Of a stretch of 39,019 nucleotides of DNA, positions 32,074-37,800 are shown one piece after another; within the stretch, counting starts at the first letter, position 1, and every line of letters begins with the position of its first letter. Below the pieces are notes generated by a model. It saw nothing but the letters and a program-made list of their open reading frames with translations. It searched no databases and was not told where the DNA came from. Position numbers and translations under genes: made by a program. Origin of the DNA: Clostridia bacterium (GTDB taxonomy: Bacteria; Bacillota; Thermoanaerobacteria; Thermoanaerobacterales; Thermoanaerobacteraceae); the NCBI GenBank assembly GCA_012840485.1, contig DULG01000062.1, forward strand, positions 1-39,019, read 5' to 3'.

Positions 32074-32175
32074 CGAAATAACAACAAATTTTTGCATATT
32101 TCATATTTTTAATTTGTTTACTTTTTCATCCCCCAAACGTCTTTATTAATGAAAAGTCATAAGGAGGAGGAGTTA

Positions 32176-32640
32176 ATGTGGCAGGATTTGTACAAAGCTG
32201 CATTCTATTATTTACTTAAATTGGGTGTACCACAGGCTGACGCTGAAGACATAGCCCAAGAAGCTCTGCTTTCCACATACTTGAATTTAGACGGCATTCA
32301 AGAGGGAAAATTAAAAGCTTATGTTTTGACTGCGGCGCGAAACAAATACACTGATTATCTGCGCAAAACCAAAAAAGATGTGACAGTTTCTATTATAAAT
32401 GTCTTTCCTCAAAGTACCTTTTCAGAGTTTCAACAGATTGAAAATAAAGAAGTAATAAAAAAAGCAGTTAATAGGCTTACTCTCAATGAGCAAAAGCTCT
32501 TTTACCTTAAATTCATATTAGAAATGTCAAATGAAGAAATTTCCTCTTACTTAAAAACCAATTCCAATACAGTAAAGACAATGGTATGGAGACTAAGAAA
32601 AAAATTAAAAGAATATTTAAAAGAGGAGGAGAAAAGTTAA
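32176..32640 (+). CDS. ECF-type RNA polymerase sigma factor (first module)
   Basis: This 154-residue protein is a two-domain sigma-70 factor. Region 2 reads GVPQADAEDIAQEALLSTYL then KLKAYVLTAARNKYTDYLRK (about 20-65). Region 4, a helix-turn-helix, is RLTLNEQKLFYLKFILEMSN then EEISSYLKTNSNTVKTMVWR. The ATG at 32176 is chosen because AAGGAGGAGG lies just upstream; an in-frame ATG at 32149 would place that site inside the gene. The stop abuts the ATG of the next gene, a membrane anti-sigma factor, which is the usual arrangement. The signal it answers is not evident; the partner resembles the SigM regulator YhdL family in the domains it carries. Confidence 0.85.
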   Translation: MWQDLYKAAFYYLLKLGVPQADAEDIAQEALLSTYLNLDGIQEGKLKAYVLTAARNKYTDYLRKTKKDVTVSIINVFPQSTFSEFQQIENKEVIKKAVNRLTLNEQKLFYLKFILEMSNEEISSYLKTNSNTVKTMVWRLRKKLKEYLKEEEKS

Positions 32641-33552
32641 ATGGGATCAGGTTTAAATAAGCCAATAGGCGATATACCTTTTGACGAAAAAGCTTTTTTG
32701 CGCAAAGCTCGTTTTAAAAGCATACTTCGCATAATAATAATTTCTTTAATTATCGCCATAGGTGTTTTTGTATTAACCATCATAATTTCTGAAATGATGC
32801 TGCAGAATCAAGAAAACCGCATAAATAGCTTTTATCCGGATATTGTTAAATTTACAGAACCTAATACCTTCGCAATTTCAGGAGAAAGTTATAATGTCAG
32901 GCTATTCGGGCGGCAAAAAGAATATTATCTTTTAAGGTTAATAGGAAATAAGCCTTATCCTGCCGGAATAGTCACAGTTGATTTTGATATCTGGGGAGGA
33001 GAGCAATTTAAAGGAGACAAATCTTTAGCCATACCAGAAGGTACAAAAGAGTACCTTGCTCCTTATGCCGTGCCAAAATTAAAATTTTACAATCCCGCAG
33101 TAAAATACGATAAAGTTATAAGAGAGTTTGATGTACTAAAAAATATACCTAACGATAATCTCGTTGAAATGGCTTTATCTTTTGACAGGCCTTTAACCCT
33201 CAGCGAAATTAAAACTATTATACCTGAGGATTTAAAGTTAATGTGGGGTGCTGTTTTGGTTTTTGAAGAAAACGACTATAAAGAAAAAAACTATCTTGCA
33301 GAAAGATTGGTGGGAAACCCCTATATTGACAGCCGTGATGGCGAAAAAGAATTTTTAAAAGAACTGGAACAACTCAGTAATTTGCAAAGTTATTCTTCGA
33401 CAAATCTAAAAAGAACAGTAAGTTTTTTAAAGGAAAAGGGCATAAAATACTACGGAGTTGTAGTAGTGGGACATCCTGAATCCTTACAAAAGTTGTCCTC
33501 TAATTCAATTATAAGGGGAGCAGTTTTAGGTATAGTTACAACTCCTTATTAA
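32641..33552 (+). CDS. Membrane anti-sigma factor (Sigma_reg_N/C type)
   Basis: This 303-residue protein has a short cytoplasmic N-terminus (FDEKAFLRKARFKSILR, about 15-31, the sigma-binding part by analogy). One transmembrane helix follows at about 32-52 (IIIISLIIAIGVFVLTIIIS). A large extracytoplasmic domain of the Sigma_reg_C type follows, with VEMALSFDRPLTLSEIKTII and YYGVVVVGHPESLQKLSSN. It should hold the preceding sigma factor at the membrane until a signal releases it. GAGGAGGAG precedes the ATG, which directly follows the sigma stop codon. A long hairpin lies 80 bases downstream. Confidence 0.82.
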   Translation: MGSGLNKPIGDIPFDEKAFLRKARFKSILRIIIISLIIAIGVFVLTIIISEMMLQNQENRINSFYPDIVKFTEPNTFAISGESYNVRLFGRQKEYYLLRLIGNKPYPAGIVTVDFDIWGGEQFKGDKSLAIPEGTKEYLAPYAVPKLKFYNPAVKYDKVIREFDVLKNIPNDNLVEMALSFDRPLTLSEIKTIIPEDLKLMWGAVLVFEENDYKEKNYLAERLVGNPYIDSRDGEKEFLKELEQLSNLQSYSSTNLKRTVSFLKEKGIKYYGVVVVGHPESLQKLSSNSIIRGAVLGIVTTPY

Positions 33553-33722: not shown

Positions 33723-33750
33723 GGAACTTTTTATCAATTTTCCCCTCTTA
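33723..33750 (+). promoter_or_regulatory. Putative ECF promoter of the second sigma operon
   Basis: GGAACTT (33723-33729), 16 bases, TCTTA (33746-33750). The GGAAC -35 core is the classic ECF type. The same layout, GGAACAT-N16-TCTAA, lies before the serpin. A start of transcription near 33757 leaves room for GAAGAGGTGA and the TTG start at 33790. Confidence 0.5.
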
Positions 33751-33789
33751 TATAGTAGAGGGAGCTCCCAAAGAAGAGGTGACAACACA

Positions 33790-34389
33790 TTGGATATAAC
33801 AGATGTTATTAAAAAAGTACAAAAAGGCGATTTTGAAGCTTTTGAATATCTCATGAAATCGCAGGGCCCAAAAGCATTGAAAACCGCATATCTTATCACA
33901 GGCAAAAAACATATAGCTGAAGAATGTGTGCAAGAAGCATTCCTTCAGTGTTACAAGAAAATTTACCAGCTTAAAAACCCTCAAGTATTTGAAAGCTGGT
34001 TTTATAGGATTTTAACTAGGATATGCTGGGGCACTATCTCAAAAAACAAAAACAATGTTTCATTGGAAGCTTTGAAAGAAGCAGGACAAGACTTTCACTC
34101 AGAAAAGGACAATACAGAAGAAATTTATGAAGAAAAAGAGCTAAAAAAGCTTCTCATTTACAACCTGTATACATTAGACCCTCACTACCGCACAATAATA
34201 ATTCTAAAATTTTATCAAGACCTTTCAATAAAAGAAATTGCAAGAATAATGGGATTGCCTGAAGGAACTGTAAAATCCCGACTTCACAGGGGGATAAAAA
34301 AATTAGAAGAAAAGCTAAAAGGCGTCCCTTTAAACACCTACAGGCCTGTAGGTAATCCTCAATTGCAAGGAGGAATTAAGGATGAATAA
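33790..34389 (+). CDS. ECF-type RNA polymerase sigma factor (second module)
   Basis: This 199-residue protein has sigma region 2 at about 10-80 (DFEAFEYLMKSQGPKALKTA, then ECVQEAFLQCYKKIYQLKNP, then FESWFYRILTR) and region 4 at about 115-165 (DPHYRTIIILKFYQDLSIKE, then IARIMGLPEGTVKSRLHRGI). It fits SigV/SigW/SigM-like ECF factors. I take the TTG at 33790, with AGAGGTGA upstream, as the start. An open extension to 33685 would span the putative promoter and has no ribosome site. The stop overlaps the start of the next gene by 8 bases (ATGAATAA), so the anti-sigma-like protein is translationally coupled. The matching promoter pattern suggests autoregulation. Confidence 0.85.
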   Translation: MDITDVIKKVQKGDFEAFEYLMKSQGPKALKTAYLITGKKHIAEECVQEAFLQCYKKIYQLKNPQVFESWFYRILTRICWGTISKNKNNVSLEALKEAGQDFHSEKDNTEEIYEEKELKKLLIYNLYTLDPHYRTIIILKFYQDLSIKEIARIMGLPEGTVKSRLHRGIKKLEEKLKGVPLNTYRPVGNPQLQGGIKDE

Positions 34390-35275
34390 AAAAGAAGAAT
34401 TTGAAATCTTACTCAGTCAAACTTTAAAAGAAAAAGCCGAAAAAATTCAGTTTGATGAAGATTTAATTGCAAATATAAAAGAAAGAATACTTTTAAATAA
34501 AAAAGGAGGAGATATTGTAATGAGATTAAAGATTATGCCTTTATGGAAAAAAGCTGTTGCTGCAGTTGTCATTACAGCTTTAACAATGGGAATTGCTTTA
34601 GGAGTATCTCCATCGGCAAGAGCAATGGCAAGTGACACCTTTATAAAATTTGGAAAAATAATGATGAGAGTAGTAGAGGAAGGAAAAGACTTTATAGTAT
34701 TAAAAGGCACAGATGAGAAAGGACATGAGATGAATATAGAAATGAGGAAAATTGAAGCTGGAGATAAAAATGCTCCTGTAGAAGCATTGCCACAACCAAA
34801 GAAATTCTCATCAATAGAAGAAGCAGAAAAATACCTTGGAATACCAATAAAACTCCCTTCATACCTTCCTGAAGGATATAAATTACACACTATGATGGGA
34901 GATAAATATTATCATAAAAGCTTAGGAAAAGAAGGTAAAAATTTTACAGCAGTATTTATAAATGAACAAAATAATCAGATAAAAACCATAAGTTATAACA
35001 TACATCCATCACCCATTCCCCTTTCTACTTTTACAAGCCATGCAACAAAAGTAGAAGAGGTCAATATAAATGGTATTACTGGTTACTGGATAGAAGAAGA
35101 ATTTATTGGACTTTCCTCTAGCGAAAATGAAAATTCTGATAAGAAATTAAGTGAAAGAATAGGAACAGTAAAACACTATCACCTTTACTGGCAGTCTAAT
35201 GGTATGACATATGGTCTGAACGGTCAAAATCTTACAAAAGAAGAGGCAGTGAAAATAGCAGAGTCAATCAAGTAA
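34382..35275 (+). CDS. DUF4367 anti-sigma-like membrane protein
   Basis: This 297-residue protein is likely the anti-sigma partner of the ECF factor. The cytoplasmic N-terminus (about 1-50) is helical and ends at a transmembrane helix at about 57-75 (VAAVVITALTMGIALGV). The outer part is a DUF4367 domain: SIEEAEKYLGIPIKLPSYLP, GITGYWIEEEF and a final YHLYWQSNGMTYGLNG. AGGAGG lies 8 bases before the ATG. A second strong site, AAGGAGGAG, lies inside the gene before M47 (ATG at 34520), just ahead of the membrane helix, so a shorter form without the sigma-binding segment could be made. A strong terminator follows the stop. Confidence 0.8.
   Translation: MNKKEEFEILLSQTLKEKAEKIQFDEDLIANIKERILLNKKGGDIVMRLKIMPLWKKAVAAVVITALTMGIALGVSPSARAMASDTFIKFGKIMMRVVEEGKDFIVLKGTDEKGHEMNIEMRKIEAGDKNAPVEALPQPKKFSSIEEAEKYLGIPIKLPSYLPEGYKLHTMMGDKYYHKSLGKEGKNFTAVFINEQNNQIKTISYNIHPSPIPLSTFTSHATKVEEVNINGITGYWIEEEFIGLSSSENENSDKKLSERIGTVKHYHLYWQSNGMTYGLNGQNLTKEEAVKIAESIK
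34504..34522 (+). promoter_or_regulatory. Internal ribosome site in the DUF4367 gene
   Basis: aggagg at 34504-34509 is followed after about ten bases by an in-frame ATG at 34520 (M47). It is as good as the site at the annotated start and would give a 251-residue protein beginning just before the transmembrane helix. Confidence 0.45.
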
Positions 35276-35282
35276 AACTCTC

Positions 35283-35324
35283 CTGCCTAGAAAGCTTATT
35301 ATAAAGCTTTCTAGGCAGTTTATT
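35283..35324 (+). terminator. Strong intrinsic terminator of the second sigma operon
   Basis: A perfect 15-bp stem (ctgcctagaaagctt, 35283-35297; complement at 35304-35318) closes a six-base loop and is followed by TTTATTTTATC. It lies eight bases past the DUF4367 stop. Confidence 0.85.
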
Positions 35325-35343
35325 TTATCTAAAATTATTTTAT

Positions 35344-35371
35344 GGAACATTTAATGATGTAATTCGTCTAA
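35344..35371 (+). promoter_or_regulatory. Putative ECF promoter of the serpin gene
   Basis: GGAACAT (35344-35350), 16 bases, TCTAA (35367-35371), with the same spacing as before the ECF sigma operon. It can also be read as TGGAAC-N16-CGTC, close to the Bacillus SigM/SigW/SigX consensus. It sits between a strong terminator and the serpin ribosome site. Confidence 0.5.
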
Positions 35372-35407
35372 CTTAGTAGAAGAACACAGGAGAGGGTGAT
35401 ATTTATC

Positions 35408-36682
35408 ATGGAAATTTTAAAACTCAAAAAGCTTTTTAAAGTACTACTCAGCATCATAATATTCATTGCAATGTTAATGAATATAACAGGATGTTCCTTT
35501 TCCACCTCAAAAGTTCAAGCTGCAAATTTGATGGAAGGAATAAAAGCAAATCCAGTAAGTGAAAAAAACATAGATGAAAAGTTTATCTATAACACAGCCG
35601 ACTTTTCAATTGAACTTTTCAAAAATTCAATTGATGACAAGGAAAATTCCCTAATCTCTCCCCTTTCAGCGATGCTGGCATTAGCTATGACAGCAAACGG
35701 AGCAGATAATGAAACTCTTGCACAAATGGAAAAAGCACTGGGAAAAGACATTTCCATTGAAGATTTAAACAAATACCTGTACACGTATATGAAAAAGCTT
35801 CCCAATGAAGAAAAATCAAAATTAACTATCGCCAATTCAATATGGTTCAAAGAAAATGATTTTATGCCCTCTAAAGATTTTCTTCAGATAATTGCAGATT
35901 ACTATAAAGCCGATATTTTTAAAGCTGCTTTTGACAGCAGTACAGTAAGTGACATAAACAACTGGGTAAAATCGAAAACAAATGGAATGATTGACAAAAT
36001 ATTGAACAAAATTGCCCCAGAAGATGTCATGTATCTGATTAATGCTGTTACTTTTGATGCAGAATGGGAAACAGTATATGAAAAGCACAATATATATAAA
36101 GATGTATTTACTGATATAAACGGAAATAAACAGAAAGCTGAATTCATGAGGTCGGAGGAAAATTTTTATATTGAAGATAAAAATGCAATTGGTTTTATCA
36201 AACCCTACGCAAAAAAACATTACAGTTTTGTAGCCATTCTCCCTAATGAAAATATATCAGTGAATGAATATATTAAAACACTCACGGGAGAAAAGTTTAT
36301 AAATTTGATCAAAAATGCAAAAATAACTTTGGTACATGCATCTCTTCCAAAATTTAAGTATGACTATGAAATCAACCTTAATAGTACCTTAGAATCCCTC
36401 GAAATGAAGGACGCTTTTTCACCAGAAAAGGCAAACTTTACTAAACTAGGAACTTCTTCTGTCGGTAATATTTTTATATCAGAAGTCCTTCACAAAACCT
36501 TTATATCTGTTGATGAAAAAGGAACAAAGGCAGGAGCTGTAACATCAGTCGATATGACGTCCACAGGAATGCCAGTAAATCCTAAAATAGTAAAATTAGA
36601 TAGACCTTTTGTATATGCAATTATTGACAATAAGACAAATTTACCTATTTTCATTGGCACAGTGATGAGTATAAAAGATTGA
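35408..36682 (+). CDS. Serpin-family serine protease inhibitor, lipoprotein
   Basis: This 424-residue protein is a serpin. It begins with a lipoprotein signal: a hydrophobic helix then NITGC, whose Cys would be lipidated, so the inhibitor is probably tethered outside the membrane. The serpin core shows FSIELFKNSIDDKENSLISP (fold start), LANAVTF-like strand segments such as YLINAVTFDAEWETVYEKHN, and LPKFKYDYEINLNSTLESLE. The reactive-loop hinge DEKGTKAGAVTSVDM (EKGT then small residues) fits an inhibitory serpin, and RPFVYAIIDNKTNLPIFIGTV closes it. Serpins of this group, such as tengpin, are known from Thermoanaerobacter-type thermophiles. The ATG has GGGTGAT seven bases upstream. It follows the second sigma module and has a matching ECF-like promoter. 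Confidence 0.93.
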   Translation: MEILKLKKLFKVLLSIIIFIAMLMNITGCSFSTSKVQAANLMEGIKANPVSEKNIDEKFIYNTADFSIELFKNSIDDKENSLISPLSAMLALAMTANGADNETLAQMEKALGKDISIEDLNKYLYTYMKKLPNEEKSKLTIANSIWFKENDFMPSKDFLQIIADYYKADIFKAAFDSSTVSDINNWVKSKTNGMIDKILNKIAPEDVMYLINAVTFDAEWETVYEKHNIYKDVFTDINGNKQKAEFMRSEENFYIEDKNAIGFIKPYAKKHYSFVAILPNENISVNEYIKTLTGEKFINLIKNAKITLVHASLPKFKYDYEINLNSTLESLEMKDAFSPEKANFTKLGTSSVGNIFISEVLHKTFISVDEKGTKAGAVTSVDMTSTGMPVNPKIVKLDRPFVYAIIDNKTNLPIFIGTVMSIKD

Positions 36683-36694
36683 AATAATTAATAT

Positions 36695-36731
36695 TAATGA
36701 GGGTTTAAGCAATTGCTTAACTCCTCTCATT
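36695..36731. terminator. Terminator between convergent serpin and transglutaminase genes
   Basis: aatgag(gg)tttaagcaa and ttgcttaa(ct)cctctcatt pair with small bulges. The stem lies between the two stop codons and overlaps the stop of the minus-strand gene, so it may serve both directions. Confidence 0.55.
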
Positions 36732-37800
36732 TATAATCAAAATATCTTTCTGAAAATTTTTCTTTGTCCCACTTATGGTCTTTTTCTATCTGTTTCTCTG
36801 TTAGGTTAAAATAAGTATACATCACTTTATCTCCTCTGTCAGGAACTGGGTCATCCCATGTAACATCTATATAGCGGATCTCTCCATTAATCTTTACCAT
36901 ACTCCATGCATGAGGCACTGCTTTTCCATTGCGTATACCAGTTCCTGAAACTCCAATACTCTCTAATCCAGCCATATTTGCCAGCAAATTAAAAGCAGCA
37001 GTATAGCCCTGACACACTCCTACTCCTTTTATCAATACTCCATAAGCGGTAAAAGACTCTATGGGAATTGTATTGTTAATATAATTTTTGTAGTCATATT
37101 TTGTGTGTTTGACTATATAATCATGAATGGCTTTAGCCTTTTGCAATTCATTCATACCAGGAGTTATTATTTTAGAAATTATCTCTTTCGCTTTTGATTC
37201 TGTTTCATTTTTCATCTGTTCTATTTCTTCTCTTGAGTAAAAATAATTAAAACTAATCGTTATTTTACTTAAGCCAGTGTTATAGCTTACAACTGAGACA
37301 GTCCATTTATCTGTATATCCCAGGTCGGGATGCTGTGAAAGAACTAATTTAGCAGTATCAGATATACGCTTTATAACCTCTTCACTTGTGTAATTACTTC
37401 CTATAGATTCGTAGAAAGAAGGGGTCGCAATAAACGTTACTTCACCTTCTGTTTTACTAAGAGCATGTTTTATAACAAGGTACAAATCTTTTTCACTATT
37501 AACTGAAGTTAATTTATCAAAGGAAGTATCTTGTAAAGAATTTTTCAAAGGAGGTATTTCATCTGTAGTAGTCTTACTTCTAAAATCAATTATTAAACGC
37601 CCATTATCCCATATTATTCTATTTTCCAAAGCAGCCTGTAGATTTGATAAAAACTCTGTTACAGATTTTGAATTAATAAATTTATTTTCAGCCAAAGAAA
37701 TTTTTTCTTTAAAGGCTGTCACTAAATTTTTAGAATCAAAATTTAAAAACACTGCAAATATTACTGCAATTAATAACAACCAAAAGACATTTTTACGCAA
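36727..37800 (-). CDS. Transglutaminase-like cysteine protease-fold protein
   Basis: This 357-residue protein has an N-terminal membrane anchor or signal segment (VFWLLLIAVIFAVFLNFDS). A C-terminal transglutaminase-like domain carries the triad: C263 in GVGVCQGYTAAF, H297 in VPHAWSMV and D312 in RYIDVTWDDP. The ~200 residues between are a helical and beta region of no clear family. Members of this group act on peptide or isopeptide bonds outside the cell; the substrate is unknown. The TTG at 37800 is used as start because AGGGGGT lies six bases upstream. A TGG-TATAAT extended -10 box is at 37864-37856. A small hairpin (CCTAAA/TTTAGG) overlaps the ribosome site. Confidence 0.85.
   Translation of the reverse strand: MRKNVFWLLLIAVIFAVFLNFDSKNLVTAFKEKISLAENKFINSKSVTEFLSNLQAALENRIIWDNGRLIIDFRSKTTTDEIPPLKNSLQDTSFDKLTSVNSEKDLYLVIKHALSKTEGEVTFIATPSFYESIGSNYTSEEVIKRISDTAKLVLSQHPDLGYTDKWTVSVVSYNTGLSKITISFNYFYSREEIEQMKNETESKAKEIISKIITPGMNELQKAKAIHDYIVKHTKYDYKNYINNTIPIESFTAYGVLIKGVGVCQGYTAAFNLLANMAGLESIGVSGTGIRNGKAVPHAWSMVKINGEIRYIDVTWDDPVPDRGDKVMYTYFNLTEKQIEKDHKWDKEKFSERYFDYK

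Follow-up and report, generated by a model that had tools for sequence, protein, structure and literature searches.

The ECF operon, the serpin gene and their promoters

The window, a 39,019-nt stretch of DNA from a Clostridia bacterium (genome G000), contains an operon for an ECF sigma factor (hereafter the neighbour ECF) and a presumed anti-sigma factor, followed by a serpin gene. One ECF-type promoter lies in front of each unit (P1 before the operon, P2 before the serpin gene). The features, all on the forward strand, are as follows.

32149..33552, +: separate ECF operon just upstream (ECF and Sigma_reg_N/C anti-sigma-like protein), with another promoter type, GTTTAC-N16-CGTC
33723..33729, +: −35 element GGAACTT of P1; the remnants in G003, G007 and G009 keep GGAACTT
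33744..33750, +: −10 element CCTCTTA of P1, with C at −12
33790..34389, +: neighbour ECF sigma factor (sigma2 and sigma4), TTG start, SD GAGGTG, Gly at the Asp position of the region 2.4 DXXR
34382..35275, +: presumed anti-sigma factor, DUF4367 outside, with a short N-terminal part and a hydrophobic segment at about residues 55-74; overlaps the ECF stop codon
35283..35318, +: intrinsic terminator with a 15-bp stem, separating the ECF operon from the serpin gene; kept in the other species
35344..35352, +: −35 element GGAACATTT of P2, 9/9 invariant in five species
35365..35371, +: −10 element CGTCTAA of P2, with G at −12, 7/7 invariant in five species; fits the distant ECF regulon described below
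35408..36682, +: serpin, probable tengpin orthologue and predicted lipoprotein (ITGC lipobox); alternative GTG start at 35396

The neighbour ECF scores above the Pfam cut-offs for Sigma70_r2 and r4_2 and above the cut-off of TIGR02937, which places it among the ECF (group IV) factors, and its best solved relative is SigW. From the operon arrangement and the topology we infer that the DUF4367 protein is its anti-sigma factor; no solved structure resembling this protein by sequence was found, and the literature search returned no paper joining DUF4367 with an ECF factor and nothing relevant on DUF4349. The ECF gene of the separate operon upstream, a second one besides the neighbour ECF (window 32086-32640, behind the promoter-like GTTTAC-N16-CGTC), has an ATG at 32149 that is probably too early, and the ATG at 32176, after AAGGAGGAGG, fits better.

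The serpin (Pfam Serpin, 1.2e-91) aligns with T. tengcongensis tengpin (PDB 2PEE, 2VH4) over nearly its full length (E 2.9e-219 to 2PEE), ungapped over 387 residues that include the N-terminal extension of 2PEE, and is a probable orthologue. Specifically, it has the fold sequence, the N-terminal extension and, read by eye, the inhibitory hinge EKGTKAGAVTSV of a tengpin-type serpin. With an ITGC lipobox, seen by eye, in the signal peptide, the serpin is probably a surface lipoprotein, in agreement with the cell-surface inhibitor proposed in a preliminary description of this DNA. The gene is present in five of the ten genomes of the genus, and a sixth, G003, retains only its last codons. A convergent gene for a transglutaminase-core protein lies 3′ of the serpin gene (window 36727-37800) and, in every related genome examined, adjoins the serpin gene or what is left of it, though at only 55-64% identity. 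A published account of the transcriptional control of tengpin was not found in the literature.

Sequence and conservation of P1 and P2

P1 consists of GGAAC (33723-33727), a 16-nt spacer and CCTCTTA (33744-33750), and P2 of GGAAC (35344-35348), a 16-nt spacer and CGTCTAA (35365-35371). The preliminary description had given them as GGAACTT-N16-TCTTA (33723-33750) and GGAACAT-N16-TCTAA (35344-35371), each just upstream of a gene start, and its coordinates and spacing are exact. About 40 bp separate P1 from the TTG start codon of the ECF gene, and about 40 bp likewise separate P2 from the serpin start (ATG 35408 or GTG 35396). By the spacing established for Tt-RpoE1, we infer a transcription start at about A33757 for P1, and the start at P2 is predicted at about A35378. 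The terminator upstream of P2 (−25.2 kcal/mol, z −6.65) closes the ECF operon, so that the serpin gene needs a promoter of its own; no forward sigma-70-like site was seen in the interval from the terminator to the serpin gene.

The bare pattern proves nothing by itself, since its counts in the genome and in the window are at chance level. In particular, GGAACNT-N16-TCTNA has six matches in the 2.65-Mb genome and seven in the reversed control, and for a version allowing two mismatches the window is no richer than its shuffles. With GGAACWW-N14-CGTCTWA and at most one mismatch, the genome contains six sites, of which two lie inside ORFs and four just 5′ of genes, namely those for the serpin, the neighbour ECF, a distant ECF on another contig, and a secreted YcdB/SLH (YcdB-repeat/S-layer-homology) protein. 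A matrix was built solely from the promoters of the distant ECF and YcdB/SLH genes, with no sequence from the window, and applied to all 28-mers on both strands of the window. P2 ranks first (24.4 bits) and P1 second (16.4 bits); the top score over 40 random windows is 17.7 bits. The score of P1 is thus within the random range, and the case for P1 therefore rests on conservation and position.

Across the five species that bear the serpin, P2 has GGAACATTT invariant at 9/9 positions, AATTCGTCTAA at 11/11 and the positions between these two at 0/8; TTAGTAGAA is also kept almost entirely. P1 is retained in G007 and G009, both with the same CCTCTTA, and is almost unchanged in the remnant in G003, which reads CGACTTA; the DNA 5′ of P1 in G007 is unrelated to that in G000. 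GGAAC-N16-CCTCTTA is also found elsewhere in the genus, with one extra site in G000 inside an ORF and three others that have a common, unrelated, GC-richer spacer. Taken on sequence evidence, this conservation makes a convincing case for both P1 and P2 as genuine ECF-type promoters, as the preliminary description had supposed.

Two features of the pair had been overlooked. The similarity of P1 and P2 extends downstream (TATAGTAGA and CTTAGTAGA), and their −10 elements differ at the decisive position (CCTCTTA versus CGTCTAA). The TAGTAGA start region common to both might have pointed to a single shared sigma factor, an idea that was dropped because other ECF promoters here start alike (GTAGAAGG, ATAGAAG). 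Another ECF group of the genus (L082, L023, L024, L028, L029, L031, L033 and L035) has a conserved TGAAC-N16-CGTT promoter, followed in most cases by a GTAGAAGG-like start region.

The distant ECF and −10 recognition

The distant ECF (G000:C89:52296-51724) is paired with a zf-HC2/DUF4349 anti-sigma factor, and its top NCBIfam model is RpoE, scoring under the curated cut-off. Its surroundings (G000:C89, locus L041 1577-8991) form an envelope neighbourhood, with a polysaccharide deacetylase, a PspC-like protein (by eye), a GH18 protein and the YcdB/SLH target. Exact GGAAC-N15-18-CGTCTAA occurs at 22 sites in the ten genomes of the genus, every one before a member of one of three families: the distant ECF, the YcdB/SLH protein, whose gene lies about 2-16 kb from that of the distant ECF, and the serpin. 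In the wider family, matches to GGAAC-N16-CGTCTAA in a second genus precede a YcdB homologue. The distant ECF itself is found in 17 of 20 family genomes, preceded by GGAAC-N16-CGTC in 16 of these and by the N17 version in G003. Its own promoter in G000 reads CGTCAAA, so that T at −9 is not strict. G004, the sole one of the ten genus genomes without the distant ECF, lacks the serpin as well, and its YcdB/SLH promoter is intact in front of a reading frame that stops at 58 aa. P2, with GGAAC-N16-CGTC(T/A)AA conserved just 5′ of the serpin gene, has the motif of this regulon, and P1, with CCTCTTA and thus without G at −12, does not.

The closest published system is Tt-RpoE1/Tt-TolB of Thermoanaerobacter (Caldanaerobacter) tengcongensis (PMC3397946), a related thermophile, which likewise combines an ECF with a membrane anti-sigma factor, a 16-nt spacer and a CGTC-type −10. 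There, the −10 determinant is GTC at −12 to −10, the Asp of the region 2.4 DXXR reads the −12 G, and self-control was shown in vitro; substitution of this Asp by Ala relaxed the preference at −12, with G tolerated, and did not reverse it (PMC3397946). The systems differ in the −35 element (tGTTAC there, GGAAC here) and in the anti-sigma factor, which is TolB-like there and DUF4367 (neighbour) or zf-HC2/DUF4349 (distant) here. As a positive control, the G000 orthologue of Tt-RpoE1/TolB (contig C32), a third system, keeps the published promoter TGTTAC-N16-CGTC, which validates the approach. E. coli sigma-E (RpoE) shares the −35 element GGAACTT, and RpoE is also the best model, below cut-off, for the distant ECF; its anti-sigma factors are others, the host here is Gram-positive, and the −10 here is CGTCTAA or CCTCTTA.

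Region 2.4 reads DYMR in the distant ECF and GTIS in the neighbour ECF, and the base at −12 tracks this difference, with G in the promoters of the distant ECF and C in the neighbour's own promoter. Region 4.2 is alike in both (KSRLHR and KSRLWR), and GGAAC could therefore be used by both. Since the Asp-to-Ala substitution in Tt-RpoE1 relaxed the preference at −12, the neighbour ECF might still read P2.

P1 probably serves autoregulation of the ECF/DUF4367 operon. The operon is a candidate autoregulated unit by its conserved ECF-type promoter and distinctive −10 element; the self-control of the neighbour ECF put forward in the preliminary description is plausible to this extent, with recognition of P1 by its own sigma factor presumed.

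The neighbour operon has decayed in relatives. Among the ten genus genomes, the ECF/anti-sigma pair is intact in G000 only. In G007, the ECF gene is frameshifted, in homopolymers where sequencing errors are possible, and the anti-sigma gene is absent regardless; in G009, the anti-sigma gene is likewise missing and the ECF breaks off at about residue 114; in G003 (C1, around 1416666), a deletion scar leaves the ECF promoter and about 17 ECF codons directly followed by the final 62 codons of the serpin gene. No trace of the neighbour ECF was found in G002 and G005. P2 and an intact serpin gene are retained in G002, G005, G007 and G009 without a working neighbour pair. A scan of genome contigs for relatives of the neighbour ECF gave only proteins of 31-34% identity, in Amphibacillus and Rummeliibacillus, so that a close outgroup is wanting, and a class-level search gave only one relative outside the genus, at 31%.

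Control of the serpin gene

Taken together, the data suggest that the distant ECF, rather than the neighbour, is the main activator of the serpin gene, and we consider it probable that the serpin belongs to the small envelope regulon of the distant ECF, an assignment made from a small species sample and with the pairing of sigma factors and promoters deduced from sequence. The neighbour ECF would drive its own ECF/DUF4367 operon from P1, and P2 would fire the serpin gene as a separate transcription unit behind the terminator. The distant ECF would control itself, the YcdB/SLH protein and, via P2, the serpin. Envelope or surface-protein stress, as the presumed signal, would relieve the zf-HC2/DUF4349 anti-sigma factor, and the tengpin-like lipoprotein serpin would then be made and block proteases on the cell surface; that the signal is protease stress is a guess.

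The linkage of the neighbour ECF or its remnant to the serpin gene or its remnant in four genomes (G000, G007, G009 and G003) suggests a functional link and argues against this assignment, and survival of the promoter after loss of the neighbour is weak evidence, because the losses may be recent. The preliminary description had the neighbour ECF run a local regulon of its own operon and the serpin, a model that fits this linkage, the −35 GGAAC and 16-nt spacing common to P1 and P2, and the similar recognition helices of region 4.2. We nonetheless regard it as distinctly unlikely, given that the −10 elements are unlike, that the exact P2 motif also occurs in the distant ECF's own promoter, that the neighbour does not have the Asp that reads −12 G, and that four genomes keep the serpin and P2 without a working pair. 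Both ECF factors may instead read P2, so that two envelope signals converge there, with the private CCTCTTA isolating the neighbour operon from the distant ECF. The neighbour, without the Asp that enforces G at −12, may accept G or C, P1 and P2 have the top window scores with the distant ECF's matrix, and the linkage would be accounted for; against this, related species with the serpin dispense with the neighbour, and such overlap seems rather unlikely.

That neither match is a promoter, with housekeeping promoters or read-through accounting for transcription of the genes, would agree with the chance frequency of the short pattern in the genome. Such an accident is highly improbable in view of the strong footprints in five (P2) and four (P1) genomes, the first and second ranks with an out-of-sample matrix, the strong terminator before the serpin gene, and the interval behind it without a forward sigma-70-like site.

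Bifidobacterium breve offers a parallel in which a regulator adjoins a bacterial serpin gene and related species keep the serpin without the regulator (cited in PMC8012564); the regulator there is a protease-inducible two-component system, in contrast to the ECF factors here, and induction by protease is shown only there.

A broader reading, possible though doubtful, is that two ECF pathways meet at the serpin promoter, one a conserved, genus-wide envelope ECF and the other the linked ECF/DUF4367 system, which has decayed repeatedly and in which loss of the Asp that reads −12 G accompanies a private CCTC −10 element. If true, this convergence would be a case in which co-resident ECF factors have split their −10 specificity. 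Under the preferred assignment to the distant ECF, that factor, the YcdB/S-layer protein and the serpin make up a small, testable regulon, and the conserved P2 would tie tengpin, a bacterial serpin known from structural work, to an uncharacterised envelope ECF and a YcdB/S-layer protein. The repeated loss of the adjoining sigma factor from beside a promoter that stays calls for caution in assigning ECF regulons by adjacency.
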